This document shows positions 2 through 26,700 of a stretch of DNA of 64,000 nt, piece by piece. Each line of letters starts with the position of its first letter. The first letter of the stretch is position 1. The translations under genes were made by a program, and so were the position numbers. Below the pieces are notes generated by a model. The model had not been told where the DNA came from. It did no database searches and was given only the letters and a program-made list of their open reading frames with translations. Source of the DNA: Lactobacillus sp. ESL0684 (GTDB lineage Bacteria; Bacillota; Bacilli; Lactobacillales; Lactobacillaceae); contig NZ_CP113941.1 in NCBI RefSeq assembly GCF_029392675.1, positions 670,001 to 734,000 of the forward strand, given 5' to 3'.

Positions 2-316
2 GCACAGACTTATAAAATGAAATTTGGGCATCGTGGTTTTAATCATCCAGTAAGAGAAATTGCTACGAAGAATATTGGTTTTACTTCGCAAAATCATGGT
101 TATGCAGTACAAGCAGATTCAATTGATCCTAGTCGGCTGCGTGTGACACATGTTGAAGTTAATGATGGCACGATTGAAGGCTTGCAACATAAGCAATACC
201 CAGCTTTCTCCGTGCAGTTTCACCCAGATAGTACTCCGGGACCGCATGATGAAGTTGGACTGTTTGATTATTTTATGCAAATGATTGACCAAGAAAGGAA
301 TCAGACTAATGCCTAA
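2..316 (+). CDS. carA: carbamoyl-phosphate synthase small subunit, C-terminal part (5' truncated by window)
   Basis: This is the last ~104 residues of the glutaminase subunit that passes ammonia from glutamine to CarB for carbamoyl phosphate (pyrimidine and arginine synthesis). The open frame runs in from the window edge, so the internal ATG at 17 is not the start. The fragment shows [11 protein letters not shown] and SQNHGYAV, typical of the class I amidotransferase end of CarA, and the catalytic His motif [14 protein letters not shown]. The residue two after that His, usually Glu in the Cys-His-Glu triad, is Asp here, a conservative change. The stop overlaps the carB start by 8 nt, so the two subunits are translationally coupled. 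Identification is secure; the catalytic Cys lies outside the window. Confidence 0.95.
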
Positions 317-3300
317 AAGAACAGATATTCACAAAATTATGGTGATTGGCTCTGGACCAATTATTATTGGTCAAGCAGCCGAATTTGATTATTCGGGAAC
401 TCAAGCGTGCTTAGCATTGCGGGAAGAGGGGTATGAAGTTGTCTTAGTTAATTCTAATCCCGCAACCATTATGACAGATCGTGAGATTGCTGATAAAGTC
501 TATCTAGAACCATTGACGGTTGATGCCGTTTCGCGAATTATTCATCAAGAATATCCAGATGCTATTTTACCAACTTTAGGGGGACAAGTTGGACTTAATA
601 TGGCATTATCATTAGCTGAAACTGGTATTTTGGACGAATTAAATATTGAACTTTTAGGAACCAAACTAGCTTCGATTGAGCAAGCTGAAGACCGGGAAAA
701 ATTCAAGCAACTTTGCCAATCCTTGGGCGAACCAGTCCCTGCATCTAAAAGTGTCAAGACGGTTACTGATGCTTTAGATTTTGGTGAAGAAATTGGCTAT
801 CCGATTATTGTACGGCCAGCCTTTACCATGGGTGGTACCGGCGGCGGTATCTGCAATAATCGCGATGAACTGACGCAAATAGTTAAGAATGGATTAGAAC
901 TTTCACCAGTCACCGAATGTTTAATTGAACGTTCGATTGCAGGTTATAAAGAGATTGAATTTGAAGTGATGCGTGATAGTAGCGATAACGCCATGATTGT
1001 CTGTTGTATGGAAAACTTTGATCCAGTGGGGATTCATACAGGTGACTCAATTGTGTTTTCGCCATCACAAACCTTGTCGGATAAGGAATATCAGATGTTA
1101 CGTGATTGCTCATTGCGGCTAATCCGGGCTTTAAAAATCGAAGGTGGTTGCAATGTCCAACTAGCATTAGATCCTAATAGTTTTAATTATGATGTGATTG
1201 AAGTTAATCCGCGGGTATCACGTTCGTCAGCGTTAGCCTCAAAAGCTACGGGTTATCCAATTGCCAAAATGGCAGCTAAAATTGCCGTTGGTCTTACTTT
1301 AGATGAAATTAAAAATCCGGTTACTGGAACAACCTTTGCGGAGTTTGAACCAGCTCTAGATTACGTAGTCTGCAAAATTCCGCGCTGGCCGTTTGATAAG
1401 TTTACTCAGGCTGATCGGCAACTTAGTACGCAGATGAAGGCGACCGGAGAAGTCATGGCAATTGGTCGCAGCGCTGAAGAAGCCTTGCAAAAGGCGGTTC
1501 GTTCGCTTGAAATTGACGAAAAGGATTTATACTCGCCTACTGCTCATCAAGCAAGTGATGAAGCATTAACTAAAAAGTTAGTTAAGGTTGAAGACGATCG
1601 ACTATTTTATTTGGCAGAAGCGTTTCGCCGTGGCTATTCACTGGCTGAATTACATGAATTAACCAAAATTAATTTTTATTTTCTAGATATTGTGCAGCAT
1701 TTGGTTGAATTAGAACAAGAAATTGCTAGTCATCCACAGGATGTAGCTACTTTAACGACTGCCAAAAGGTATGGTTTTAGTGACCAGACGATTGCAAATT
1801 TATGGCACGAAAAGCCTGATCAAGTGCGGCAACTGCGCTATGATAATAAATTGTTGCCAGTTTATAAATTGGTGGATACCTGCGCGGCTGAATTTGCTTC
1901 ACAGACACCGTATTTTTATTCGACTTATGATTTTGAAAATGAAAGTCACCAATCAGACAAAAAATCAGTGCTTGTAGTTGGCTCTGGACCAATCAGAATT
2001 GGTCAAGGAGTTGAATTTGATTATGCTACGGTTCACTGTGTCAAAGCCTTGCAAAGCTTAGGCTATGAAGCAATTGTTATCAATTCTAACCCGGAAACAG
2101 TTTCAACGGATTTTTCGATTTCTGATAAATTATATTTTGAACCGTTAACGCTTGAAGATGTCTTGAATGTCTGCGATCTTGAACAACCGGTGGGAGTAAT
2201 TATTCAATTCGGTGGGCAAACTGCAATTAATTTAGCAGCTGGACTTGAGCAGCATGGTGTTAAAATTCTAGGTACTAGTTTGCAGGATCTTGACCGTGCC
2301 GAAGATCGAGAACTGTTTGACAATGCAGTTAAAGACTTAAACTTAAAGCAGCCCCAAGGTATTACTGCTACAACACATGCCCAAGTACTGCAGGCAGCAG
2401 AGCAATTAGGCTATCCAGTTTTGGTACGGCCGAGCTATGTTTTAGGTGGCAAGGCAATGGAAATTGTCTATAACCAGACAGAACTTGAGGACTATTTGAA
2501 TCAACATGCTGATATTGCTAGCAGCCATCCGATTTTGGTAGACGATTATCTTGATGGTCGTGAATGCGATGTGGATGCAATTTGTGACGGAGAGCGCGTT
2601 TTAATTCCGGGAATCATGGAACACATTGAGCACGCAGGAGTGCATTCGGGTGATTCGATGGCGGTTTACCCAGCGCAGACTTTTACTCCTGAAATTAAGC
2701 AAAAAATTGCACAGATAACTAAGCAGCTGGCCTTAAAACTTAATTGCCGCGGCATCATGAATTTGCAGCTAATTGAACGAGACGGTGAAATCTATATTAT
2801 CGAGGTTAATCCGCGAGCCAGTCGCACCGTACCATTTTTAAGTAAAATTACTGATATTGAAATGGCACAGGTGGCAACACGGGTAATTATGGGACAAAGT
2901 TTGGCACAGCAGGGTTATGCCGATGGGCTGGCTGCTGAACCAAAAATGATTAGTGTGAAAGCACCAGTCTTTTCCTTTAGCAAGTTAGCCGATGTGGATA
3001 GCTATCTAGGACCCGAGATGAAGTCAACAGGCGAAGTTATGGGGAGTGATATTAGTTTTCCAAAGGCTTTGTATAAGGCCTTTGCTGGTGCTAACATGGT
3101 GATTCCAGATAACGGTAATGTGCTGTTAACCATTGAGGATCGTGATAAGGAAGCGATTTTGCCAATTGCCCAAAAATTCGCGCAAATTGGGTATCGGTTG
3201 TTTGCGACAAAGGGAACGGCGGCTTTTCTAGAAAATAACGGCTTGCAGGTTAGTGTGGTAAATAAGTTGGGTGAAAATGACCAACACAACGTTGCGACAT

Positions 3301-3488
3301 CGTTAAAGAATGGGCAGTTTGATTTGGTAATTAATACCATGGGTCATGATGTCGCTAAAAATTCGGATGGCTTCATCATTCGTCAAGTGGCAATCCAGCA
3401 AAATGTACCACTAATTACTAGTTTGGATACGGCTCAAGCACTACTTACAGCACTGGAAAATCGCTCGTTTTCAACTACTAGTTTATAA
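309..3488 (+). CDS. carB: carbamoyl-phosphate synthase large subunit
   Basis: The 1059-residue synthetase makes carbamoyl phosphate from bicarbonate, ammonia and two ATP. It shows the duplicated layout: [20 protein letters not shown] near the N-terminus and [19 protein letters not shown] near residue 555, each opening a biotin-carboxylase-like plus ATP-grasp half. Each half has an EVNPR motif (about residues 297 and 835). The C-terminal ~130 residues form the MGS-like allosteric domain ([19 protein letters not shown]). The start is ATG 309, not the in-frame ATG 285, because AAGAAAGGA at about 291-299 sits 9 nt before it and the protein then begins MPKRTDIHK as in relatives. It overlaps carA by 8 nt. 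No other pyrimidine gene is visible downstream; a terminator follows. Confidence 0.97.
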
Positions 3489-3505
3489 ACTATCTTATAA
3501 AATTA

Positions 3506-3542
3506 AAAAAGCTCAGATGCATTTGGTACTTCTGAGCTTTTT
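3506..3542. terminator. bidirectional intrinsic terminator between carB and the glycosylase gene
   Basis: A 12-bp perfect stem (AAAAAGCTCAGA at 3506-3517 with its complement at 3531-3542) has A-runs and T-runs on both sides. It serves carB on the plus strand and the convergent minus-strand gene ending at 3547. Confidence 0.85.
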
Positions 3543-3546
3543 AGCT

Positions 3547-4161
3547 TTACGATTTTTCTTTTTGGATGGTTAAATAGTCAATTATATGTTCATCGATTAA
3601 GGCATGAAATTCTTGAAAGTCACTAGTTGTTAACTCTGTTAGCTGGGCTTCCATTTCTGTCTTTACTTGCAAATACTTTAATTTTTTACTGTCCCTGTTT
3701 TCAAAGAAACTAATCATCTTTTTAGAGTAAGCGTCTGCTATAAATACTGGTCTTTGGAAGATATAGAGTAAAATCACATCAGCAGTTTCGTTGCCAATTC
3801 CCTTAATTTTTAACAGCTCATTGCGTAAGTCACGAGTAGGAATAGTAGTTGAGACTACCTTAGAATTGACATTGAACCTATTAAAATATTGTAAGGCTGC
3901 ATGAATTGTTTCCGATTTAGCATGGTAAAATCCACTGGGAATAATCAATTCTTTGATTTCTGCGCTATCTAGCTTAGCTAAAAGCTGAGGTTCGAAATTG
4001 GTTGCTGATCGCAGATTTTGCAATGACTTTTCGGCATTTAGCCAGTTGGTATTTTGAACAAGAATAGCTCCAATTAATGTTTCCAGTACAGAATCTGAGG
4101 GCCACCAGTTTTGCGGACCATAGATGTTAAGCATGTCATGATAGACATCAAGATAATTCAT
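3547..4161 (-). CDS. endonuclease III-fold (HhH-GPD) DNA glycosylase, MagIII-like
   Basis: This 204-residue HhH-GPD protein probably excises damaged bases in base excision repair. The helix-hairpin-helix and catalytic region reads LLKIKGIGNETADVILLY followed by VFIADAYSKKM; the Asp in IADAY matches the catalytic Asp of the superfamily. In endonuclease III the HhH holds a catalytic Lys (GRKTA); here the aligned residue is Glu (GNETA), so beta-lyase activity is not expected. The protein contains no cysteine, so the C-terminal [4Fe-4S] cluster of Nth is absent. Both traits recall Helicobacter 3-methyladenine glycosylase MagIII (KGIGKESAD). The start has AAGGAA just upstream. It is a lone minus-strand gene between two terminators. 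The fold is certain; the substrate (alkylated purines) is inferred. Confidence 0.8.
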   Translation of the reverse strand: MNYLDVYHDMLNIYGPQNWWPSDSVLETLIGAILVQNTNWLNAEKSLQNLRSATNFEPQLLAKLDSAEIKELIIPSGFYHAKSETIHAALQYFNRFNVNSKVVSTTIPTRDLRNELLKIKGIGNETADVILLYIFQRPVFIADAYSKKMISFFENRDSKKLKYLQVKTEMEAQLTELTTSDFQEFHALIDEHIIDYLTIQKEKS

Positions 4162-4255
4162 AACGTTTCCTTAAAAAATTTATAAAATTAGTTTTATTTA
4201 AATGTAATCGATTTCCAGCCTTAACGTCAAGCTATTTTTGATAAAATGACTAACT

Positions 4256-4288
4256 AAAAAGCAGCTATGCACAAACTAGCTGCTTTTT
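4256..4288 (-). terminator. intrinsic terminator of pepX
   Basis: A 12-bp stem (AAAAAGCAGCTA at 4256-4267 with TAGCTGCTTTTT at 4277-4288) lies 13 nt beyond the pepX stop. Read on the minus strand it ends in a T-run. Confidence 0.85.
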
Positions 4289-4300
4289 GGGTGAATTAAT

Positions 4301-6694
4301 TTACTTTTGGCTAAATTTAATCTCTGTATTAGCCAAGTCGATAGTATAGTCTTCTGCTGCAAGTGGGCGTTTGGTCATGCCCTGATCCGTGGAATAGATG
4401 ATGAGGCAGAGCTTAGCGCCAACTGGCAGAGTGTAATAGGTTGGCTGCAGTTTAAAGCTTAAGTCGTAAAATTTTCCGGCTTCAATTGGAGTTGGCTTTT
4501 GCAGATCAGAATAATTTTGCAAATTGATATGTGCCTTAGTGATTAACTTAGCTGGGGTTGCTTTAGTCGGTACAAATTCTTGCAATGTATCGGTGCCAAA
4601 ACGGTAGGCTAGTTCTTGACCGCCAGACATCAAAGCCTTAGGTGTAGCAGTTAAACGTTGACGCTCACCAAGTTCTACCAAAGCAACCGAAAGCTGACCG
4701 GTTGTTTTGCTGGCAGAAACACGTAACTTAACTTCAGGCCTGCCGACAAGCGTAACGGGATGGATAAATTCATCACTAACAAAGCGTAAGCTAGCTTTAG
4801 CCCATTTTGGTTCACCCGCTATAAATTGATTTTGCCATTCTGATTCAGATATTTTGGCAGCTTTAAATTCGCTACCTCCTAGATCAGTGAAAGTTAGTTG
4901 CTGCTTGCCATTACCATCTTTTTGCAATGTTCCGTCATTAGTGGGGTAATAGGTTACAGGTTGACCAATTTCATCGCTCCAATCATTTTCAGCGTGCCAT
5001 TGATCAGCTTGCAGATTGTCTTGCACTAGCACGGTTGACCACTGCTCATCTGTATGATTATCAACTTCCAGCAATTCATGAACGAGCCAGAGATTCATTA
5101 AATCAGTAAAATCGATTGAAACCAAGTTATTCATATTATAATGCGGTCCTTGATGTAAGAAAAGATGATGCTCAATTGGTAATTGCTTGACCTTTTGCCA
5201 CACTTTGTAAACATTCTTTGGTTTGACATTCCAATCATTCAAACCATGGACACTAATCCAAGAACACTTGATTTGATCGGTGTGGTGACGGTAGTTGCGA
5301 GCTTCCCAAAAATCTGAATATTGTCCGGTTACTCGATCTTCTTTAGTCAAAAGCGTCTTTTGCATTTCATCATAGCGTGGCTTAATTTTAAGATAGTCGC
5401 CTGCATCCCAAAGGTTAGATTGGCAGGTTTCGGCTAACAAGTCTAGGTCTTCTCCTTGACAGGCTTCGGGAGCAATAACTAAGCCATGCTCACGATAGTA
5501 ATCATACCAAGAAGAGATTGCAGCTTCAGAAATAACGGTTTTCAGACCTGCAACGCCAGTAGTTGCGACAGCAATCTGCAAGGTTCCTAGGTATGAACGA
5601 CCAGTCATGCCAATGTTACCATTACACCAACTGGCTTTAGTTTCATATTTTTTAGTGCGGTCAGTATAGGCAATTCGGTCGCCATGAAGCCATTCGATAA
5701 TTTCTTTGGCACTTTCAGTTTCTTCAGGTGAACCGGTAATGCGTAGGCCATCACTGCCCTTAGTACCGATACCGCCAGCAAATACACTAGCAAAGCCACG
5801 TGCCAGCATGTATTCGTTTAACGGATAAGAAGATTTACCAGTAGCTTGCTCAGTAGTTGGATAATTTTCATCTCCCGTTGGTTTGGCAGCAATTTGATTA
5901 GCGGGTTCATATTGTGGATTAGTCCAGGTGGTGGCGTCGCTTAAATTTTCATCAACGTTATGATTACGCTGTTCATTGCTAATGATTCCGCCAAAATATG
6001 GGCTGGCCGTGTATAACGCAGGCACAGGCATCCTGTTACTTTCGACAGGACGGAAAATGGTGGTTTGTAGTAGGTCGGGTTGCCCGTCATGGTCGGTGTC
6101 GAGGTCACTTTCAACGTAGACCACTTCCCGAATAACTTTATTAGTATCAAAAATTGGCAGGCTTTTACCATTAAATAAGATAAATTTGTTTTTAGGCCAT
6201 GTTCCCAATTGCCGATAGAAGTAGCCTTTACCCGCCATGACATCAATTAATAACTGACCATTTTTGGTACGGGTATTTAATAAGCGGTAAAAAGCGCTGA
6301 TTAATTCAGATTGATTAGTGATGTGGCAAACAACGGGTAATGCTTGCTTATTCATAAAGCGTATTGGATCGGCTAAATCGTAGTCGTAATCAACATGGTA
6401 GCCTAATAGTTGCAAAGCAACATTGTAAAATTGCTTGAGACTGATACTTTCAGGATTACTGGTGATGAATTCGGCTAATGACTGCTTGGAACTAACGGCA
6501 AATTCTTGCAGTTTTGCTAATCGCGCAGAATCGGCGGTTGGGTTGACTTCAGCTAAGGTATTAGCTACTAATTCGGCTAATAATTGTCCAAAGGATAAAT
6601 TTTGGTAATTTTTAGGTAAAAAATTAATCGCTTGTAATTCTTGTAATTGGGTTTGGTAGTCAGTTTCGACATAGGCATATTGATTATACTTCAT
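4301..6694 (-). CDS. pepX: Xaa-Pro dipeptidyl-peptidase (family S15)
   Basis: PepX (797 residues, normal for the family) removes N-terminal X-Pro dipeptides in the cytoplasm, a key step in lactic acid bacteria using proline-rich peptides. The nucleophile is in GRSYLG (Ser367). Asp487 (GLNDWNV) and His518 (HQGPHYNM) complete a catalytic triad with spacing like that of lactococcal PepX. An N-terminal helical domain (about 1-170), the alpha/beta-hydrolase core and a C-terminal jelly-roll-like domain follow the S15 order. There is no signal peptide. A strong RBS (AAAAAAGGAG) lies 6 nt upstream of the ATG. It is monocistronic between terminators at 4256 and 6743. With the M24 peptidase at 52385 and the amidohydrolases at 8358-10863 it suggests active proline-peptide scavenging. 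Confidence 0.96.
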
Positions 6695-11015: not shown

Positions 11016-12053
11016 TTATTCAAAATTTAAAGCAAAATCTTCAGCAGTAAAGAAATGTAGCTTGTAATTAAATAGGTAATTAGCCACCAAGCCTAAGGCA
11101 ATTGGCAAGATAAAGAACAGAATTATTACCAAACTGATATTAGCAAAATCACTAGGTCGATTAGCCAATGCTGCTAGTGGTCCAATTAAGCCAGAGAAGC
11201 CGAATCCCGCACTCATTGGCGTGCCTCCAATTTTAAAAATGGCACCTAAGCCACCTAAAATTCCAGCATTAATGGAAATTGGTAATAATAGTTTAGGATT
11301 GGTCATCAGATTGGCCATTTGCATTTTTGGTGAACCCAAGAAGTGGGCAATTGAGGTGCCAAAGGAATTCACCTGCCAGCCAAAAATCGCTAAAGCAAAG
11401 GATACGCCGACAATACCCAGGTTAGCTGATCCAGCGGCTATGCCTGAAAGGCTAATTGCTGTGGCAATTCCGACAGATGAAATTGGCGATACAATTAATA
11501 AACCGAATATAATACCCATGATGATTCCCATTAAAATTGGTTGTAGACCAATTAGGTGTTCAATACCGATTCCAATTAAAGTTGTTATTTTTCCTACTGG
11601 GATCAGGGTTAAGTGGCCAATTCCGCCAGCTACTACTAGGACGATTAAGGGCAATAATAAAATTGTGTAGGCTTTTAAACTTTTGCCTAGTAATAAAATC
11701 ACACCATAGCCAATCATAATAGTAATTGCTATATTAATGACGTCACCGCTACCGTTAACCGTAATATTGCCGTTCTTCATAGTAAAATTACCAGCGCCAG
11801 CGATTGCCGCCAAAGCAAGTGCTGAAGTCTGAATCGGTGATAGTTTAGCCGTCATGCCCACACAAACCGCGCTAATTGCTGGTAATAATCCTGATGCAAA
11901 TGCGGTTAATGCGAGGATAAATTGCAATTGCGGCCAAGTTGGTAATAATGCTTGGACTAGTTGATTAACTAATGCTCCTGGAATTAGTGCGACAACGATT
12001 CCGATGGATAGGCCATTTAAGGTATCTAAACCAATCTTTTTAAAAGTTTTCAT
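11016..12053 (-). CDS. orphan EIIC-like integral membrane transporter (PTS_EIIC_2 type)
   Basis: This 345-residue, very hydrophobic protein has about ten membrane segments and matches, from memory of the family, the stand-alone PTS_EIIC_2 (PF13303) type: Gly-rich segments such as GLSIGIVVALIPGALVNQL at the start and SINAGILGGLGAIFKIGGTP late. No EIIA, EIIB or HPr-like gene is nearby, so phosphotransferase coupling is doubtful. The start is taken at 12053, where TAAGGAG lies 7 nt upstream, rather than at the in-frame ATG at 12080, which falls at the base of the terminator hairpin. The gene sits directly behind a leader peptide and attenuator (12072-12284) whose Tyr/Phe codons hint at an aromatic amino acid signal. 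The substrate is unknown. Confidence 0.7.
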   Translation of the reverse strand: MKTFKKIGLDTLNGLSIGIVVALIPGALVNQLVQALLPTWPQLQFILALTAFASGLLPAISAVCVGMTAKLSPIQTSALALAAIAGAGNFTMKNGNITVNGSGDVINIAITIMIGYGVILLLGKSLKAYTILLLPLIVLVVAGGIGHLTLIPVGKITTLIGIGIEHLIGLQPILMGIIMGIIFGLLIVSPISSVGIATAISLSGIAAGSANLGIVGVSFALAIFGWQVNSFGTSIAHFLGSPKMQMANLMTNPKLLLPISINAGILGGLGAIFKIGGTPMSAGFGFSGLIGPLAALANRPSDFANISLVIILFFILPIALGLVANYLFNYKLHFFTAEDFALNFE

Positions 12054-12071: not shown

Positions 12072-12107
12072 AAAAAACACGCAGCTGACGACAACTGCGT
12101 GTTTTTT
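12072..12107 (-). terminator. attenuator terminator (segments 3:4) before the EIIC-like gene
   Basis: A 13-bp perfect stem (plus-strand AAAAAACACGCAG at 12072-12084 with its complement at 12095-12107, 10-nt loop) ends, read on the minus strand, in a run of six Ts. It lies only 18 nt before the start codon of the EIIC-like gene and downstream of its leader, so it must be bypassed for expression. It cannot serve the convergent side because no plus-strand gene ends here. Confidence 0.85.
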
Positions 12108-12130
12108 AGAAAAGAGGAACTAATCAAAAA

Positions 12131-12205
12131 AGTTGAACACGCAGATTGTCTTGAATACTGACCTGTGTGTCTAACTCAATAGCAAATTTGGCACTCAGCT
12201 CAACT
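12131..12205 (-). promoter_or_regulatory. alternative RNA pairings of a leader-peptide attenuator
   Basis: All on the minus strand. Segment 2 (12150-12136, GACAATCTGCGTGTT) can pair with segment 3 (12103-12090, AACACGCAGTTGTC), giving 14 bp with one bulge; this removes the 5' arm of the terminator. Segment 2 can instead pair with segment 1 (12170-12161, ACACACAGGT; 9 of 10 positions). An outer stem joins the end of the leader ORF (12205-12198, AGTTGAGC) to 12138-12131 (GTTCAACT), directly followed by a T-run. The pairings are mutually exclusive, as in trp-type attenuators. A ribosome stalled on the Tyr/Phe codons would cover AGTTGAGC and free segment 2. No T-box consensus is present. Confidence 0.65.
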
Positions 12206-12266
12206 GTCTAAAGTAACCAAAATAATATTTAACTGAAGTGTAATTAACGTTTATACGTGTCGTCAT
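12195..12266 (-). CDS. putative Tyr/Phe-rich leader peptide (23 aa)
   Basis: The ORF starts at ATG 12266 and ends with TGA at 12195. The peptide has Tyr at 9, 14, 15 and 18 and Phe at 16 and 19: six aromatic residues in eleven positions, including the run YYFGYF. A GAGAGG ribosome-binding site lies 10 nt upstream; an in-frame ATG at 12284 is possible but lacks a site. It precedes overlapping alternative stems and a terminator in front of the EIIC-like gene, the arrangement of amino-acid-responsive leader peptides. It resembles no protein I know, which is expected for a leader whose role is its translation. Function is inferred from position and codons only. Confidence 0.6.
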   Translation of the reverse strand: MTTRINVNYTSVKYYFGYFRQLS

Positions 12267-12298
12267 AATTATAATACCTCTCATAATTGCTTAATAAA

Positions 12299-12327
12299 AT
12301 AATACTAGAATCTAGTTAAAAATGCAA
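12299..12327 (-). promoter_or_regulatory. promoter of the leader peptide / EIIC-like transcript
   Basis: On the minus strand TTGCAT (12327-12322), a 17-bp spacer and TATTAT (12304-12299). Transcription would begin near 12292, ahead of the leader RBS. It lies directly after the oppA stop, where I see no terminator, so read-through from oppA is also possible. Confidence 0.45.
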
Positions 12328-12335
12328 GCCTAAAT

Positions 12336-14108
12336 TTATTTACTATAACCAACCTTATACCATAGGGTGTGATTGTTGTTGCTGGAAGATGGTTTTAATG
12401 AATATCCTGTAACTTGATCGTTAATAGCGGTAATTTGATAGAAACTATCAATCGGAATATTGTATGCCTCTTTATTCATATAAGTTTGCCATTCATGCAA
12501 TTTTTTGACACGATATTGATGGTCGAAAGCCTTCTGTGAATCAATTTCTTTTAATAATTTATTGTTCTCAGGAGTTACGAAGCGCGAGTAATTTAGGATA
12601 GAACTCTCACTATAATAGGATTGCGGTGAAGGATCACTTGGCAAGCCCCAGCCTGCGGTAAACATATCAACTTTGGGATCGTCATTTTGTAATTTATCAT
12701 AGAAGGAATTAAATTCAATTAGGCGTCCATTAGTTAATTTAACGTTTAGACCAATTTTATGCCATTGTTGAATATAATTTTGAATAATTGGTTCACGTGT
12801 TGAGTCACCAGTCATTGCCGCAAAGTTAATAGTCAAAGGCTTACCATTAGGCTGAGTCCGCCATTTTCCTTTTTTCTTATAACCAGCTTTATCTAAAATA
12901 GCATTGGCTTTCTTCAGATTGTAAGAATAGCCTTTCTCATTTTTGTTGAAATAGTCGCCAAATGGTGCTGGAATTAAAGTCGGAATGGCGAACTTGATAC
13001 CATAAGTGTATCGCTTATCAACGGCATCTGTGTTCATTGCGTACCCAATTGCTTGGCGCAAGGCTTTATTATTCATCTTGGAATTCTTATCCATGACATT
13101 TTTGCCTTGTTTGGCATCCCATTTACCAACTTTAAATCCTAAATAATAGTAGGTAAGTGGAACTTGTGAAATAAAATTAACATTTTTGGTATTTTTAACT
13201 TGTTTCCATTGGGTTGGAATAACTGTGGCAACATCGAATTTGTGACTTTTAATTGCTTGAGAAGCAGAATTTGAGGCAACTACTTGGGTCACGATTTTAT
13301 CTAACTTCGGCTTACCACGCCAGTAATATTTGTTTGGTGTCCAAGTAATTGATTGTCCGCGAACCACTTTACTTGCTTGATAAGGACCAAAGAACATAGG
13401 CTTTTGTCTAATTTTATCGGATGACTTTAACTTGTTAAATGGAACGTCTTTTAAATAGTGATATGGCTCTGCGGCTTCCCAGAAATAACGATTACCACTG
13501 TTGTACATGCCAGGCTTCAACTCTTTGCAATGAATAACAATGGTTCTGCCGTTTTCTCCATCTGGCATTTCAATCCCAGAAATCGTTTCGGCCTTGCCTT
13601 CGTGATATTCTTTTACACCAATAATGTTTTCGATATTAGTATTGTAGCGTTCTGATTGCGTCTTTTTATTGGCAATGATTTCATAAGGATACTCCAAGTC
13701 CTTAGCAATTACTTGTTTGCCGTCTGACCACTTGACACCTTTCTTAACAGTAATAGTGATAGTACTGGCTTTTTGATCTAGCTTTAAGGTAGCTGGCCCT
13801 TTGTTAGTAATGCGGTAATGGTCATCAGTGTCAAACAAGGTTTCCTGACCAGGACTGGCGGCTTGCGAGTCGATATCACTAGTTGACAATTCATTAGAAA
13901 AGATTCCTGAAAATGGCGTATCAGTTTCTAGTGCAACTTTAAGTGTACCACCTTGTTTTGTCTTTTTGACTGGTGTTTCATGTGCAAATTTGCTGACGGA
14001 CTTTGATTGATTATCATTGTTGGTATTTTTGTTATTACTACATGCGGCGAGGGTTAATGCCGACAAGCTAATAGTACTAATTGCTAATAAAGCTTTATTT
14101 TTTCTCAT
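12336..14108 (-). CDS. oppA: oligopeptide ABC transporter substrate-binding lipoprotein
   Basis: This 590-residue extracellular solute-binding protein (family 5, SBP_bac_5) captures peptides for import. The N-terminus has a lipoprotein signal with lipobox LAAC (Cys23), then a Ser/Asn-rich tether. The mature part has the expected features: ITVKKGVKWSDGKQV near residue 122, and PNKYYWRGKPKLDKI near 260. The length is normal. No OppBCDF permease or ATPase gene is in the window, so it is an orphan binding protein that must use a transporter encoded elsewhere, a common situation in lactobacilli. AAAGGAG lies 6 nt upstream of the start. The specific ligand cannot be read from sequence. Confidence 0.92.
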   Translation of the reverse strand: MRKNKALLAISTISLSALTLAACSNNKNTNNDNQSKSVSKFAHETPVKKTKQGGTLKVALETDTPFSGIFSNELSTSDIDSQAASPGQETLFDTDDHYRITNKGPATLKLDQKASTITITVKKGVKWSDGKQVIAKDLEYPYEIIANKKTQSERYNTNIENIIGVKEYHEGKAETISGIEMPDGENGRTIVIHCKELKPGMYNSGNRYFWEAAEPYHYLKDVPFNKLKSSDKIRQKPMFFGPYQASKVVRGQSITWTPNKYYWRGKPKLDKIVTQVVASNSASQAIKSHKFDVATVIPTQWKQVKNTKNVNFISQVPLTYYYLGFKVGKWDAKQGKNVMDKNSKMNNKALRQAIGYAMNTDAVDKRYTYGIKFAIPTLIPAPFGDYFNKNEKGYSYNLKKANAILDKAGYKKKGKWRTQPNGKPLTINFAAMTGDSTREPIIQNYIQQWHKIGLNVKLTNGRLIEFNSFYDKLQNDDPKVDMFTAGWGLPSDPSPQSYYSESSILNYSRFVTPENNKLLKEIDSQKAFDHQYRVKKLHEWQTYMNKEAYNIPIDSFYQITAINDQVTGYSLKPSSSNNNHTLWYKVGYSK

Positions 14109-17729: not shown

Positions 17730-20700
17730 ATGCTCGGAAAAAATAATTATAACGAACGTTTGAGAAAGATGGAGATGCAGGCTAAACAAGACCGCTTCTC
17801 AATTCGAAAACTTTCTATTGGGGCTGCTTCTGTTCTACTTGGTTTTAGTTTTCTTGGACTAAATGCCAATAAGGTAGAGGCTGATACAGTTAGTGCTGAT
17901 ACCACTAACACAATCAAGGCTCAAGACGAGCAATCTGCTGAAGCAAAACCAGCCAAGCAGGCTGCCAAAACAGATTTGTCCACTTATGAAGGTTTATCTG
18001 CATTTTTAAAGTCAGATGATCAAACTGGTGCTGCCAAGGATAAAGATACCAATCCTGCAGCAGCTAAGAATCCAGAAAAGCCGCTTTCTGATGGAGATGC
18101 TGACCAAAATCAGGATCATCATGATGCTACTAAACCAGACGATGAGGAGCAACCAGACGACGAGGACCCTGAAGGACCCAGTCAGACTGCTCAACAAAAG
18201 CCAGATGAAGCTTCTAAACCAGTAACTACTGATCCTGAAAATACTAATTCTTCAATCACTGATGATAGTCAAGCTGCAACTGATCAAAAACCAGCGGTTA
18301 TCGTTACTGACGATGCTCAAATTACACCGCAGGCTAGCGATGGTCATGTACCAGATCTATTTACTCCTTCTAATGGTAGTGGTAATTGTAAAGTTGACCG
18401 TAATAGTGTGATATCTAAGACTGAAGATAAAGAAGTTGATGTCTATGATTGGCAAGATCTAGTTGATGCCTTTTATAATAGCAAAATTAATACTATTAAT
18501 GTGGCAGCTGATATTCAAGCACCAACTAATATTAATAGTGCGACCAGGTTAATGATTCCAGCAAGAAAATTAGTTGTACGGGCTAAAGATTCCGATGAAA
18601 ATGATCCTAGTAGTGCCCGTCATATTATCGACTTTCAGATGTTTGAACCAGGAACTTATGATGGTAGCGCAACTGCTCTAGATATTACTTACCAAAACTT
18701 AGATATCTATAGTCGAACTTTTTATGGAATTATCAATACTAGCAAAGATAAGTATTCTAAAGTTAACATCAAAAATGTCAACTTTATTGGTTCACAAATG
18801 CTCTATGTTGGTCAGCATACTGAAGCTAGGTTTTCAGGCACCAATCATGCGGAAACTGTGTCAACTTATACTAATCCGCTAAATGAGAATGATACAACAT
18901 CTTATACGATGCAAGCTGATAATCAACAATTATTCCAATTTAGTGATCGAGGGGGACGATTAACTTTCGCCGCTGGATCTACTTTTACTGGAACCACTTA
19001 TATGGGTGATGTTATTGAAATGCAAGGTGGTGCATCAGGTACTGATACAATTAATATCAATGGTGAGAATGTTTCACTTGCTGCTGATAATGAAATTATC
19101 ATTGAAAAAGGTGCACAGGTAAAGCTTAATCCAGCAGGAGCTACTGATGTCCCTAGAAATGCTAATGGCGGAGAAAACAATGCTGTTCCAACAGGTATTG
19201 CGGTTATTAGTGGTCAAGGTAGTGTTTTAGTTCAAGATGGTGGTCACCTAGAGATTGATGTTGGTGGCTCTGAATATGATGGTGCTAACTTAAATAATCG
19301 TCGTGCTAAAGCAATTATCTTAAATGGTAGTGGTTCATCAATGACCCTTGCTGATAATGCTTCAGTAGTAGTTAATACCAACGGTAACATTAGTGATCGT
19401 AACCAAAACAGTAGTGGTGCGGGCGTTTTAATCTCTGTTGGTGGTAACTTATCTACTGGTGACAAGGCGAAATTTATTGTTAATGGTTCTAATATGGGAA
19501 CCTATAGTGGCACCTTAGTCAGCATCGGTGGTTCTGCTGATATTACTGGTACTGATTTTGAAATTAAATTGGATAATGCTAGTTCAGGTACTGGCAATTT
19601 AACTTTATTTAGTGCAGGTAAAAATACAGTAGTTAGTAACCCAGAGGACTTCCTATTAGATGCTGGTGCTAATGTTAGTGCTGCCTTAGTTCCAAGTGGT
19701 AGTTTTACCCTGAATTCAGTTCGACTGCGCCATCCCGATGGCAGTGTATCAGATCCATTTAGAATTTTTGGTTTTCATGGTATTGGCGGCGGTAAGCTAA
19801 AGGCTGATGAAGCTAATATTGAAGGGATGACGGTTGAGCAAGAACAGGACAATATTACTCGAATTAACAATCCCGATGGTGTGCGTCGTCTGGAATTCCT
19901 CGCTGCCAACATGGATGGTTTTGTGACTATTGATCCAATCGATCCAATCTCGCTTGCTGACATCGTAATTGATCAAGATGGTAACGAAATTATTACTGGT
20001 TACGCTAATCAAGCCGATGCCTTAATTTCGGTAGCCATGCCTAATCCTGCTGATGATGCTAAAATTAATAATCAAATCGACAGTCCTTATCATAAAGAGC
20101 AAGAAGCTGGCATCAAGTATGCTGCGCAATCAAGTACGACTGCTGAAGCTAGTGGAAATCATGCGGGTAAGTACAAGTTTACGATAACTATTCCAGCGGA
20201 ATTATTACCTAAGGATAATGGTACTACGCCGCAAATGGCTACTTTAAGTGCTAACAAGGACTTCGTTGAAGGTGATCCATCACTGCCTGAAGAAGAACGG
20301 CAAAATCCACAACAAGCTAAGCTGTTAACCCCTAGTGATATTGCAAGTGCTTTAGATCAACAAAAAGATAGTGCAGCCAAGGAAATTCAATCTACTGCAA
20401 GTAAAGCTAGAGAAACAATTAATGGTGTCTTTGGTGATGACACCGCGGCTGCTAAGCCATATCTTGACGAGATTGATAGCATTGTTAATGCTTCAACTAA
20501 CAAGGAAGCTGGAGCAGACGATCCTGATAGTGTCTATGTTCCAAACGATATGAGCGCGGTAACAAGCCGTAAAGATACTGCAATTAACAAGATTCAAGAT
20601 CAAGTTAAACAGGCTCGGAAAGCTAACCAAACTGCGACTATTAACGCTGCTAAGCAACAAGTCAAAGACTGGGCTGATAAGGGAAATGAACTATTAGGTT

Positions 20701-23700
20701 ATCAAGCAGGTGCTGCAGGCGATCCAGATATTGCTAAGGCACTTGATGATGCTAACCAAGCGATTGAAGCGGCTGCTAATGATGAAAACGGCGATCTTGA
20801 CCAGGCAATTACTAATGGTCAAAACGCAATTTTAGCTGCTTACAAGCAAGCTGCTAAGAAGCAGATTGATAATGACTTTACTAATAAGAATAACTTAGTC
20901 AATAATTCTTTAGCGTTATCTAAAGACCAAAAAACCAAGTATAGTCAAGAATTAGCTGATGCTAAGGATGCGGACGAAGCAACTATTGACGCAGTAGATA
21001 ATTTAAATCCAGATCAGACTAAACCTGCAGGTACATTACAATCAGTTTATGATCCAATTGAGGCTGTTTCAGATTTGCGTCGTTATAAGAATCAGCTCAA
21101 GCAAAAGTATCCGGATAACACAGAATTAAATCAGGCGTTAGAAACTACTTCTAAACAATGGGAAGACCAAATTGACGCTGATAAGCAAGATCCTGCTAAG
21201 TGGAACGATGATTTAGCTAAGGGTAAGGATGCCTTAAAGCAATTGGTTGCCAAGGAATTTGCTTCAGATTTGCAAACTGAACTTGATGCTGATAAGGACA
21301 AGTTAAGCGATTTAGCAGCCGATAATGAAGCTGTCAATCATGCTATTCAAGCAGCGCAGGATGCGATTGACGATATTGCTAATGCTAATGACGACGCTGA
21401 GGCTAATCAAAAGCATGATACGGCTCAAAAAGCACTGGACAAGTTGAATTCGATTATTGAACTACAAGCTGAAGCTAAAGCTCAAAAGCAACAATATGGT
21501 GAAACTTATCCAACTACTGGTGTATCTGGTAACGAGGCTGCGGCAAACAAACCAATTATTAATGATATTAATCAGGGTATTGATAATGCCTTAAATGCTG
21601 CTATTAACAACGTTACTGCTGCATCTGATGATGACTTAGCTAATGTAACTAACCAAGGTGTAGTTGACATTGATAAGGTTGGTGCGCAAAAACAATTAGC
21701 GCAGAAAGCCCAAGCTGTTGAACAGCAATTGAACGCCCTCAGTGGTCACGGTCTTAGTGCGACTGAAATTGATGAGCAAGTTCAAGCGGCCAAGGATTTA
21801 GTTGCTAATGAAGCTAATACTGGTTATAGTGATGCGATTACTGCTGCGACTAGCCAAGATGATGTTTCAGGCAATCTAACTGATGGTTTGAATGCTCTAG
21901 ATGACTTGCTCAATCAACAAAAATTGATTGCTAGTCAGAATGCTGCGATTACTGCCATTCAAAATGCACAAACAGAAGCTAATGCTACAATTGATGGAAC
22001 TAATCTGAGCGATGAAGCCAAGGCTGCTGCTAAGAAGCAGATTAAGACCATTGCTGATAACGCAGTAAGTAAGATTAATAAAGATCAGACACCTGCAGCA
22101 GTAACGACTGATAAGAATAAAGCGTTAGAAAATATTCAAAATGTCGTTAATAATATTAACGACGACAATACTGTATTAACGACTGCCCAAACAAGTGCAA
22201 TTTCTGATTTGCAAGCTGCAGCTAATCAGGCTAAGACTGACATTGATAATTTGCCAGCTGATCAACTAAGTGATAGCCAAAAGCAAGAATTTAAGCAAAA
22301 AGTTGATGATGACCTAGCTGATGCGATTGCTAATGTTAATAGTGCCGGTAATACTGATGATGTTGACGAAGCCAAGACCACTGGTAAGCAGAAGATTAAT
22401 GCTGATCGTGATGCAGCTCAATTAGCAGCTGACAAGGCTAAGGCACTCCAAGATCTCGAGACTACCAAGGATAACGATACCGCTGCAATCAATAATCTAT
22501 TAACTGACGGTAAGATTAATCAAGCAACAGCGGATAAAGCTAAGAACGATATTAAGGGTTATTATGATCATGCTGTAGCGGCAGTTAACAACGCCAAGGA
22601 TTCTGAAACAGTCACAGATGAGAAGAATAACGGTATTGACGCTATGAATGGTGTCGTTACTACGGCTACTAACGATGCCGACGGTGCCATCAGTGCCGCT
22701 AAGACTGAAGCAACTGATAAGTTAGATACGTTAGCTAACCAAATTAAGCAAAATATTAAAAATAATCCTAATCTTGGTAATGATGAAAAAGACGACTTTA
22801 TCGGTCAAGTTGACACTGCCCTGTCGACTGCTAAACAGAATATTGGTAAAGCAACTACGGTAGATGCTGTTAATAAGGCTGAAGGACGTGGCGAATCTGC
22901 TCTTAATGCTGTAGATGCTGCTGCCAAACTTCAAGGGACTAAGAATGATGCTCTGAAGGCTTTGCTTAATACTTATAATAAGGATAAGGGTCAAATTAAT
23001 GCGATGACTAACATTGATTCTGATAAGAAGAATCAAATGCTTACTGAGCTGAAGGGTGATTATGATACTGCAGTTGGCAAGGTCAAAGACCCTCAGACTA
23101 ATACCATCAATAAGGTACAAGCTGAAAAGCAGACTGGTATTACCAATATGGATGGTGTATTGACTAATGCTGGTAATTTAGATGGTGCGATTAGTGAAGC
23201 ACAAGAAAAGTTAGAACAAGTTGCTAAAGATGCTAAAGATCGAATCGACAAGTCAGATTTAGCTGATAAAGAAGCTGCTAAGAATGCGATTGATGAAGCC
23301 CTTAACTCCGCTAAAGCAGATGTTGCTTCTAAGGATAATGTAACTGACATCAATCAGGCAGAGCAAGATGGCGAACAAGCAATTCTTGCTGCTGAACAAG
23401 ACTCAACTCTCAAGGATGCTAAGGCAAAAGCTAAAGAAAAATTAGCACAATATGCTGAAACAGCTAAGGCTAAGATTCCAGCTAATTTGACTGAAGACCA
23501 GGCTAAGCAAGTTGAAACTGCGATTGATAATGCAGTCACTGACGCAAATCAGGCAATTGATGCTGCAACTTCAGAAACTGGCGTCAACAATCAAGAAGGT
23601 GCTGGCGAAGTGAATATTGACTCTGTTTTAGCTGATGCTAACTTACTAAGTGCTAAAGAAGAAGATAAACAGGACGTTCAAAACCACCTTGATCAAGCGG

Positions 23701-26700
23701 GCTTAACTGGTGATGCGTTAGAAGACGCTCAGCAAGTAGTTGAACAAGCTAAGCAAAATATTGATAATGCTACTTCAGTTGCTGCAGCCGATAAGCTGCG
23801 TGAAGATGCTATTAAAGCTATTGACAATATTAAGAAAAACCAAAATAATCAGGAATTAAATAATGCTAAAGATGCTGCGATTGCTGAACTTGATGCAGAA
23901 CTGGGTGATGCAAATAGTGGCGTTTTAGCTGGTATTGCTGCTTTAGCTAAGCCAGCTGGTAACTTGACTCCTGAAGAAGTAACTCAATATCAAAATCAAG
24001 CTCAAAAAGCTCATGATGATGCAGTTAATAAAGTTAACAGTGCAGCTAATGCTACTGAAGTTAATAAGAATAAGGAAACAGGCATTAGTAAGATCGATCA
24101 AGCCTTAACTGACGCTAAATTGCAAGATAAGAAGAATCAGGCTAAGGCAGACCTTAATACTTATGCTGAAACTGCTAAGACGGCGATTGATGGTAAGGAT
24201 CTTGACCAAAAGACTAAGGATAAGTTGAAGGGTCAAATTGATCAGGTTGTTGATGATATTAACAAAGATATTGATGCTGCAACTACTGGTTCTGCAATTA
24301 ATACAGCGGAAAATGACGGCAAGCAGAAGATTGATAATGTCGCTAGTTCTGCTGATAATGCTGAGTTAAGCAGCGCACGTGAAAATGCACTTACCAATCT
24401 GCATGATAAGGCTAATACAGTACAGACTAGTCTTGATAATGCGTTAAACGATGGTAGCTTAACTTCAAGTCAATATCAAGATTTAACTAATGATCTTAAT
24501 GATGCTGTTGCTAACGCAGAAGATGCCATCAATGCCGCTAATACAGTTACTGATATTAATCAAGAAGAACAAAACGGTGAAGATGCTATTGATGGCGTTT
24601 CAAGTGATGCCAATCTTGATAAAACCATGAATAAAGATTTAGCAGCGTTGCAAACTGCCGCTAATAACGCCAATGATAAGATTGATGAGTTAACTGGGTT
24701 TACTCCTGAACAGAAACAGGATATGAAGGATCAAGTTGAATCCGAACGTGCTAAGGCAGCCAAAAATGTGCGTGATCAGCGTAAAGCAAATTCTGCTAGT
24801 GGTATGAATCGTGCTAAGAATGATGGTATTACTGCGATTAACAATGTTACTAATGGTTTTGTTGATAAAAATACTGCCATTGAGAAGTTAAAGGATGAAG
24901 CACAAACTGCTAAGGATACTTTGCAAGCTGCGGCTACAAATCCAGAAGATCCTAATCATCCATTCTTAAATGATACTGAATTAGCTACTGCTAATACTGC
25001 GGTTGATACTGCACTTGATACTGCTATTTCTAATATCTTGGCAGCTGATCCAGCTGATATTGGCGAAAATGGTTCGGTCTTTAATGATGCCAAGGACCTA
25101 ATTAGCAACTCAACTTTACCAGCACAATTGCAAGCAGAGAAGAACAAGCAGATTGCAGCAATTAATAAGTATGCAGCTGAAAAGACTGATTCTCTTGCTG
25201 ACTTAACCGATTTAACTCCTGAACAAATAGCTGACTTGACTGCAGATCTTGAAACCGCTCGTAAGAAGACGGTTGATAAGATTAATGATGTAAGTTTGCC
25301 AGGTCAAGCTACTCCAGCAGATTTAGCTGACGCTAAGACGCAACTGACTAATATCGAAAAGGGTACTGTAACTGGTGAAACCATTGACTTTGGTGAAGCT
25401 GGAATTGACAAGATTGTTACTGCTGCAAATAATTCCGCTGCTTATAATCACAAGCAGGACAAAATTAAAGAGCTTGAAGACGCATATGAAAAGACGCAAG
25501 AGCGGATTAAGGATTCTGGCTTAACTCCTAATCAACAAAAAGACAAGCTTGAAGACGCAAAAACTGCTTTTAATGCTGCTAAGCAAAATATTATCGACGC
25601 AACCGGTGCTGATACTGCTGCAATTAGTGCGGCTGCAGACACTGCATTAACAAATGGTAAAACTGAACTTGATAAGATTGCTGGGTTAACTGAAGCAGAA
25701 GGTCAAAAGAGTGCTGCTCTTGATAAGTTAAAGGCTAAGCAAAATTCTGCAAAAGATATCATTAATCATTCGCAATTAACAGCTGAACAAAAGCAAGCAG
25801 CTCTTGCTGAAATTGATAAAGCTTATGAAATCGGTAAGACAAGTATTACTGACCTGTCTACTGTTGATAAAGAAGGTAATCAACTAGATTCTACGGCAAT
25901 CAAGGCAGCAATTATTGCGGCTGAAACAACTGGTGAACATTTAATTGATGAGGTTATTAATAAGGAGTCGGGTAATAAGAATTATCAATGGTTTAATAAC
26001 GAAATCGAAAATACAAAAGATTTGGCAGAAGATTTCGATAAGCTAACTGATAAGCAAAAAGCAGATAATCCCGAACTTGTTGCTGCTATTAATACTGCAA
26101 TTACTGATCTGAATAAAGCTACTGATATTGGCAGTGCTAGTGATGCATACAGCCGCGGCAAGACTGCTTTGAATAAGCTTAATGCGATTGAAGAGGTTAA
26201 GCAGGCAGCACAAAATGCTAAAGATATCATTAATAACACGCAATTAACAGCTGAACAAAAGCAAACTGCTATTTCTGAGATTGATGACTATCAAACTGCT
26301 GCAATTAATGCAATTAATGCTGTTAACCAACCAGCTGGGGACGTTGACGGAATTGCTAATAATATCAAGGATGCGGTTATCACTGGTGAGAACAATATTA
26401 ATAGTGTTCTCAGTCAAGTGACTGAGCAAGCTAGAAAAGAAGCTAAACAAGCTTTAACTGCTGCTTACAACAATGCTAAGCAAGAGTTGGGTAATGACAA
26501 GCATAGCAATCTTGATACCGCTTATAACAATGCTTTGGCTGCTTTAAATAGTGCCGATAAGGTTGAAAGTGTCAACCAAGCTAAAGATGATGGTATTAAG
26601 AACCTAGCAAACAGCGCACTTGATGATGCAGCAACTAATGCTAATACTACAATTGATCAAGCGTCTAACTTGTCAACTACCCAGAAAGATAAGCTAAAAG

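Follow-up and report, generated by a model that had tools for sequence, protein, structure and literature searches.

A putative his-like attenuator with aromatic leader codons precedes a PTS_EIIC_2 transporter gene in Lactobacillus

Results

A leader with alternative hairpins lies upstream of a PTS_EIIC_2 gene

The minus strand of the window (the whole stretch of 64,000 nucleotides of Lactobacillus sp. ESL0684 DNA analysed here) carries a gene encoding a PTS_EIIC_2 membrane protein, preceded by a short open reading frame (ORF) and a series of segments able to form alternative hairpins (Table 1). An earlier note made from the sequence alone had described a promoter, a 23-codon ORF with a YYFGYF run, a terminator, an antiterminator and an anti-antiterminator; all were found in the same places on the minus strand. 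Its 14-bp antiterminator with one bulge and its terminator 18 nt from the transporter start were confirmed on the sequence: the D:E helix pairs GACAA-(bulged U)-CUGCGUGUU with AACACGCAGUUGUC, and the terminator ends at 12072, 18 nt ahead of the transporter ATG at 12053. Formation of A:B in the window requires the bulging of one extra U. A simple consensus scan returned neither the window promoter, whose -35 box matches 3 of 6 positions (scan threshold, 4), nor the window terminator. Comparison with shuffled sequences indicated that the 229-nt leader has a low folding energy (z -2.5; 2/200 shuffles as low), as do its last 139 nt (z -4.1; 0/200 as low).

The stretch TTAAGTACTTTCTTCTC between segments D and E (12130-12108) is kept in relatives. 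In the minimum-energy fold of the window leader it pairs with the Shine-Dalgarno (SD) sequence GAGAGG of the leader ORF, a predicted pairing that might shut off leader translation late. No second copy of the leader DNA was found in the window genome, the other matches being its own palindromic terminator and short ones at chance level. Elsewhere, the window contains a repetitive, surface-protein-like ORF of 4908 aa (17730-32456) and a ribosomal protein L21 leader (Rfam RF00559; 51527-51603).

Table 1 Features of the leader and its neighbours in the window.
Feature	Position	Strand	Remarks
Upstream neighbour, OppA-type oligopeptide-binding lipoprotein	12336..14108	-	Outside the unit
Promoter	12299..12327	-	-35 TTGCAT 12327-12322, 17-nt spacer, -10 TATTAT 12304-12299; read from the sequence
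Leader ORF, MTTRINVNYTSVKYYFGYFRQLS and stop, 23 codons	12195..12266	-	SD GAGAGG at 12282-12277
Regulatory codons TAT TAT TTT GGT TAC TTT (Tyr Tyr Phe Gly Tyr Phe)	12210..12227	-	
Segment A, within the aromatic codons	12211..12218	-	Partner: 3' half of B (A:B)
Segment B: ORF end, stop TGA (12197-12195), GTGCC	12190..12203	-	Partner: A or C
Segment C (segment 1 of the earlier note)	12158..12171	-	Partner: B or D
Segment D (segment 2 of the earlier note)	12132..12150	-	Partner: C (anti-antiterminator) or E (antiterminator)
Segment E (segment 3 of the earlier note), 5' arm of the terminator	12090..12107	-	
Segment F and U run; E:F is the intrinsic terminator	12072..12087	-	
Regulated gene, 345-aa PTS_EIIC_2 (PF13303) membrane protein	11016..12053	-	SD AAGGAG 12066-12061; Pfam 1.2e-87

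The leader ORF and its pairings are conserved in Lactobacillus

A protein search of 75 Lactobacillus genomes gave a match in 40, and 22 of these, including the window, hold a close orthologue of the transporter (at least 73% identity); named close equivalents include L. melliventris, laiwuensis, kimbladii, kullabergensis, helsingborgensis and huangpiensis. The position of the leader before the transporter is not a matter of chance: an aromatic-run leader ORF precedes the gene in 22/22 close orthologues, promoter-like hexamers (TTGNNN-N16-18-TANNNT) precede that ORF in 22/22, with a 17-nt spacer in 21, and the pairings carry compensatory changes. The core codons read TAT TAT TTY NGG TAY TTY, with changes that are mainly synonymous or at the third position except at codon 4. 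An aromatic codon is kept at codons 1, 2, 3, 5 and 6 in 21, 22, 21, 22 and 22 of the 22 rows, respectively, and at codon 4 in 14; this codon encodes Trp in 14 rows and Arg in 7. The window has Gly at this codon, at which Trp is found in most close relatives.

Read from the alignment of these 22 leaders, the predicted pairings are a six-segment, his-like chain (A:B, B:C, C:D, D:E and E:F), all possible in the 22 leaders, with B:C mostly lost in one (L036). In the terminating set (A:B, C:D and E:F), 98.0% of 590 cells were paired and 11 pairs showed changes on both sides; none of 500 shuffles was as high on any measure and slid controls reached at most 57% paired. In the antiterminating set (B:C and D:E), 92.6% of 503 cells were paired, with both-side changes in 6 pairs and slid controls at or below 48%; shuffles reached the observed percentage in 15/500 cases, the pair count in 8/500, the covariation score in 5/500 and the number of pair types in 211/500. 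The terminator E:F had 99.2% of cells paired and both-side changes in 9/12 pairs, the antiterminator D:E 97.0% and 5/12, and C:D 95.9% of cells paired. A:B had 98.5% of cells paired over 6 pairs, one of them with both-side changes. B:C had 87.9% of cells paired and one pair with both-side changes; one of its columns pairs in only 9/22 rows, and the helix is reduced to 3/11 in L036 and 7/11 in L022. Judged on set-wise pairing, both-side changes and shuffle outcomes, E:F and D:E are well supported; by the same alignment C:D and A:B are moderately supported and B:C least. D:E and E:F are mutually exclusive, as segment E is common to both and both covary.

The three pairings of the earlier note were therefore kept, with covariation, in the 22 Lactobacillus leaders, and its short ORF and aromatic codons recurred in close and distant relatives. 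The pairing of AGTTGAGC, at the end of the leader ORF, with sequence beside segment 2 fared differently: it is complete in the window (8/8) and reaches 1 to 6 of 8 pairs in the other 21 rows. This helix was rejected as the general coupling, being complete in the window only and not conserved among the 22 rows. The trp-type logic proposed earlier holds insofar as pairings and ORF are conserved; the coupling of the ribosome to segment 2 would run through the two further pairings A:B and B:C instead of the AGTTGAGC helix.

A shuffle test on single leaders (47 leaders; significance at p 0.05) showed a significant pairing of A with the following region in 29/47 and of B with the rest in 7/47. In the window neither was significant, 33/200 shuffles being as low for A and 67/200 for B. 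A:B was absent in L144, L147, L086, L090 and L068. In remote leaders, B:C could be read by eye with other letters (GTGATCTGTG against CACAGATCAC in L134, CAGATCTAA against TTAGATCTG in L077), both unscored readings.

For eight remoter homologues of the genus (L039-L046), the 330 nt ahead of the transporter gene contained no leader of this kind. In L039, L042 and L046 the transporter directly follows an aminotransferase gene, and no leader was found ahead of that aminotransferase in the one genome read (L153). The second PTS_EIIC_2 copy of the window genome (L161) had no visible leader, and none with an SD and 4/6 aromatic codons was found at this genome's three aminotransferase paralogues or at the two nearest of its five D-2-hydroxyacid dehydrogenase matches. 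A gene for a lipoprotein of about 590 aa immediately precedes each of the two PTS_EIIC_2 copies of the window genome (window 12336-14108; L161 3077-4846); the lipoprotein of the window is of OppA type, and the one at L161 looks similar by eye.

In other genera the leader precedes an aminotransferase operon

A family search of 397 genomes found a homologue at E 1e-50 in 122, covering 22/40 genera. An aromatic-run ORF (5/6 aromatic, with SD) stood directly before the transporter in 14/86 upstream regions, a further region (L056, at a contig end) being left out of the count; elsewhere an aminotransferase precedes the transporter and the leader stands ahead of the aminotransferase. Among 36 six-kilobase loci, 17 had a strict leader; it precedes the aminotransferase in 14, from 10 genera, and stands immediately ahead of the transporter in the other 3. 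The operon behind the leader in these 10 further genera thus reads class-I aminotransferase, D-2-hydroxyacid dehydrogenase (in between in 9 of the 14 aminotransferase-first loci, lacking in 5) and PTS_EIIC_2, with leaders such as RYYFWFF and FYYFWFF. Earlier, the transporter had been called an orphan; this description fits some lineages, and elsewhere the leader is common to the transporter, an aminotransferase and, in many cases, a D-2-hydroxyacid dehydrogenase. ATG-started aromatic-run ORFs (SD, 5/6 aromatic) lay within 450 nt before the unit in 15/36 loci and slightly farther away, at 468 and 478 nt, in two others, against a background of one per 450,612 strand-bases in the rest of the 36 loci with the two leaders just beyond 450 nt set aside. 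The remaining 19/36 loci had no strict aromatic leader; 15 of these were read by eye, revealing a looser leader in 5 (L151, L157, L163, L168 and L169) and a doubtful one in L139. In L151, L168 and L169, which belong to one genus, the leader has no SD (MTEKQSQMHSYYYWFTR in L151; shortly before oriented positions 3717, 3710 and 3680) and may start near the promoter, possibly as a leaderless leader ORF.

The 40 distinct leader peptides contained Phe in 40, Tyr in 38 and Trp in 27. Because Trp codons occur in most relatives, the sensor looks aromatic in general, on sequence grounds, and not restricted to Tyr and Phe. A DNA pattern for YYFWFF-type runs matched in 95/397 genomes; 30 of the pattern loci were opened, and in 8 the run belongs to a short ORF that has an ATG and an SD and that, in all 8, stands before the same kind of aminotransferase. 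Outside Lactobacillaceae, 25 loci were opened and one (L205, MSNSLKLKQANFYYFWFFTIDL) had the leader, before an aminotransferase-transporter pair.

Searched over the 75 genomes, a covariance model built from the 22 Lactobacillus leaders scored its own 22 source loci above 115 bits, as expected for a training set, and every other site at 45 bits or less. Among sources not used for training, the leader was recovered in 16/38, including L205, with E values between 1.3e-6 and 0.003, at the place and on the strand of the aromatic ORF; two pairs among these 16 look like one genome twice. L134 and L138 came next, at E 0.01. The model missed L068, L077, L147, L158 and L163, matched L144 and L165 on the antisense strand only, and was run on a source (L047) that does not reach its leader; it gave no match at E <=1 on any of 9 leaderless control loci. 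A T-box or another known RNA was rejected, as no Rfam family, T-box included, was found at the leaders; the T-box covariance model had no match in the window or in 80 relative loci. A fluoride riboswitch was seen near the transporter locus of one relative (L062, 2885-2957).

Folding with a masked ribosome

To mimic the state before F is made, transcripts were cut after E and folded with the ribosome masked, and the probability that E is sequestered was computed for the 45/47 leaders with a detected terminator. These are equilibrium figures, and attenuators work by order of synthesis. Mean sequestration of E was 0.65 with the ribosome stalled mid-run, 0.45 at the stop codon and 0.38 without a ribosome; the stalled state exceeded the stop state by 0.3 in 13 leaders and the opposite was found in one (L022). 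For the 23 leaders outside the window lineage, the values were 0.72 stalled versus 0.48 at the stop, with 19 up and 2 down (Wilcoxon p 2e-4, uncorrected for relatedness). The window leader showed no stall/stop difference: E was sequestered at 0.89 stalled, 0.87 at the stop and 0.78 without a ribosome, and D was held by C at 0.66 and 0.68. Across the 22 Lactobacillus leaders, stalling reduced mean C:D merely from 0.74 to 0.67. Equilibrium folding thus appears to favour stall-dependent antitermination across relatives and not for the window sequence.

The transporter and the operon enzymes

No other domain was found in the PTS_EIIC_2 protein of the window, and EIIA or EIIB was neither fused nor adjacent at this locus, which is flanked by genes for an oligopeptide-binding protein and an amidohydrolase. 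The AlphaFold2 model of the transporter (mean pLDDT 87.6) resembles EIIC of glucose- or trehalose-type PTS; the four best Foldseek matches were PTS EIIC (TM 0.54-0.60 by query length), one of them with E <0.001. Comparison of its sequence with solved structures turned up nothing beyond weak hits to an unrelated subunit of a photosystem. The first operon gene encodes a class I/II aminotransferase (PF00155), with NF005588 as the best NCBIfam match at 542 bits, below the cut-off of 576; the source model of NF005588, PRK07309, is presumably an aromatic aminotransferase. The other enzyme is a D-2-hydroxyacid dehydrogenase (PF02826/PF00389), its nearest solved chains being D-lactate and D-2-hydroxyisocaproate dehydrogenases. 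Both operon enzymes would act on aromatic compounds.

A transporter tree was built by a short search from 75 rows, with five genomes in twice, the labels of six rows taken from a longer locus of the same genome, and two long paralogues as the root. All 40 leader-scored rows fell within one 53-row clade (SH-aLRT 94), and 11 rows beside dihydrolipoamide dehydrogenase alone fell outside it. Since all leader rows lie in one clade, the leader may go back to a single origin ahead of an aminotransferase gene, followed by several losses; the window lineage may likewise have kept the leader and transporter only. A PTS_EIIC_2 homologue directly follows a dihydrolipoamide dehydrogenase gene in 17/25 loci of other Lactobacillales families (L200, L201, L204, L206, L208-L210, L212-L219, L221 and L222) and in Lactobacillus L167, where a complete E1-E1-E2-E3 2-oxo-acid dehydrogenase set precedes the transporter (141-6029). 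This context suggests a 2-oxo-acid carrier.

Discussion

We consider it highly probable that the region is a ribosome-mediated transcription attenuator sensing the charging of Tyr, Phe and possibly Trp tRNA through a six-segment, his-like chain; the stalling signal and the direction of the response are what we infer. As in ribosome-mediated attenuators, a leader ORF that can be translated, complete with start codon, SD and stop codon, lies close to the hairpins, and it holds a run of codons for the amino acids of the presumed pathway (aromatic runs in the 40 distinct peptides; linked aminotransferase and dehydrogenase). A ribosome covers about 10 nt beyond the A-site codon, so that a ribosome in the YYF run would hide A and leave B, and one at the TGA would hide B and leave C. 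In the proposed mechanism, transcription would start at the leader's own promoter and a ribosome would load on the leader ORF. When Tyr- and Phe-tRNA (in most relatives also Trp-tRNA) are charged, the ribosome would reach the stop codon and cover B; C:D would then pair, leaving E free for F, and transcription would terminate before the transporter gene. When aromatic tRNAs are scarce, the ribosome would stall in the YYFxYF run and cover A, releasing B for B:C and then allowing D:E, so that no terminator forms and the transporter is made. Without a ribosome, A:B would form and lock B, making termination the default.

The enteric his attenuator comprises segments A to F, with A:B, C:D and E:F terminating, B:C and D:E antiterminating, and the regulatory codons in the leader ORF. 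The leader described here shares the six successive segments, the two pairing sets and the location of the regulatory codons; it differs in having aromatic instead of His codons, in its occurrence in Lactobacillales, in the genes that follow and in the stop codon inside B. The enteric pheA, pheST and trp leaders, which act on biosynthesis or synthetase genes, use aromatic codons and the same attenuation principle, but each reads one amino acid and none controls a transporter. Among Firmicutes, Rli60 of Listeria is a ribosome-mediated attenuator of ilv-leu that answers branched-chain amino acid supply (PMC5864092); it has a leader peptide, starvation codons and competing 2:3 and 3:4 hairpins as here, whereas its codons are branched-chain, its operon is biosynthetic and four segments are described. 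In bacilli, hisZ and a hisS paralogue are likewise preceded by a regular Firmicute leader peptide where a T-box would be usual, but that leader uses histidine and its genes are of tRNA-synthetase type (PMC2965389). The candidate uORFC-13-1 before aroF in Acholeplasma resembles the present leader in placing Phe codon(s) ahead of a terminator and of a gene of the aromatic pathway; it differs in organism and in preceding a biosynthetic enzyme, and the accessible excerpt mentions no Tyr/Trp run (PMC8632094). A look-up of PfoR and EIIC in a 2008 T-box survey gave no occurrence of either (PMC2494555). In agreement with the earlier note, which knew of no such leader, searches of open-licence papers on PTS_EIIC_2/PF13303, PfoR, aromatic leaders in lactobacilli and pyruvate carriers returned no description of the leader or of the substrate. 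Ribosome-mediated attenuation is classical and Firmicute cases are known; an aromatic leader in lactobacilli was not found described.

The hairpin could be a plain terminator of the upstream oppA gene, with the short ORF arising by chance. Only 8 nt separate the oppA stop codon from the -35 box and no other terminator was seen in between, but the joint conservation of leader ORF, promoter and pairings with the transporter, the occurrence of such a leader before an aminotransferase in relatives and the compensatory changes in the antiterminator make this extremely improbable. We give equally little credence to a functional small hydrophobic protein next to an independent terminator: the peptide is conserved, yet between genera it is mainly the aromatic run that is kept, and in 29/47 leaders the codons of this run show complementarity to the sequence beyond the stop.

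Other readings keep the attenuator and change its signal. Leaders of the ermC and tnaC types sense an inhibitor or arrest by their own sequence, and a stalled ribosome would act on the same RNA whatever the cause. An arrest peptide or inhibitor sensor is nevertheless very unlikely here; there is no fixed arrest sequence, as YYFGYF, YYFWFF, FYFYFTW, YYYFYFF, NFWFWFF and VFFWFW share only their aromatic character, and the linked genes encode an aminotransferase and a hydroxyacid dehydrogenase, not resistance. That a real attenuator answers general translation speed or a single aromatic residue instead of all three is unlikely to a lesser degree: the window has no Trp, and of the 40 distinct peptides 13 lack Trp and 2 lack Tyr, while against this the codon mixture is kept across genera and Phe is present in 40/40.

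With an attenuator of aromatic tRNA charging as the preferred reading for bee-gut lactobacilli and many related bacteria, the aromatic-rich leader hints at what the orphan transporter carries. Uptake is likelier than export, since a gene that is read through when a residue is scarce would fit a role in supplying it. The substrate would be an aromatic amino acid or, more boldly, an aryl-2-oxo or 2-hydroxy acid; the latter is favoured by the family's other context beside the E3 gene of 2-oxo-acid dehydrogenase. A tentative and somewhat doubtful proposal is that the aromatic-leader PTS_EIIC_2 clade is a PTS-independent, EIIC-fold carrier importing aryl-pyruvates and aryl-lactates (phenylpyruvate, phenyllactate, indolelactate and others), which together with the aminotransferase and the D-2-hydroxyacid dehydrogenase would form a starvation-induced salvage route to Phe, Tyr and Trp. 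If so, operons usually read as makers of phenyllactate or indolelactate would be anabolic under scarcity and governed by one multivalent aromatic sensor, and pyruvate or some other short 2-oxo acid would be the cargo of the related transporters found in 2-oxo-acid dehydrogenase operons.

PTS_EIIC_2, for which no substrate was found in print, gains a testable assignment to aromatic metabolism. T-boxes usually do this regulatory job in the group; in a range of its members, a single leader sensitive to Tyr, Phe and often Trp would do it by classical ribosome-mediated attenuation. The aminotransferase / D-2-hydroxyacid dehydrogenase operon would come under aromatic-starvation control; enzymes of this type underlie aryl-lactate formation in lactobacilli. 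Bee-gut Firm5 lactobacilli with an aromatic aminotransferase are reported to convert Trp to indole compounds that affect bee memory, and for this reason the control of aromatic supply in Firm5 would be of interest (PMC9018956).
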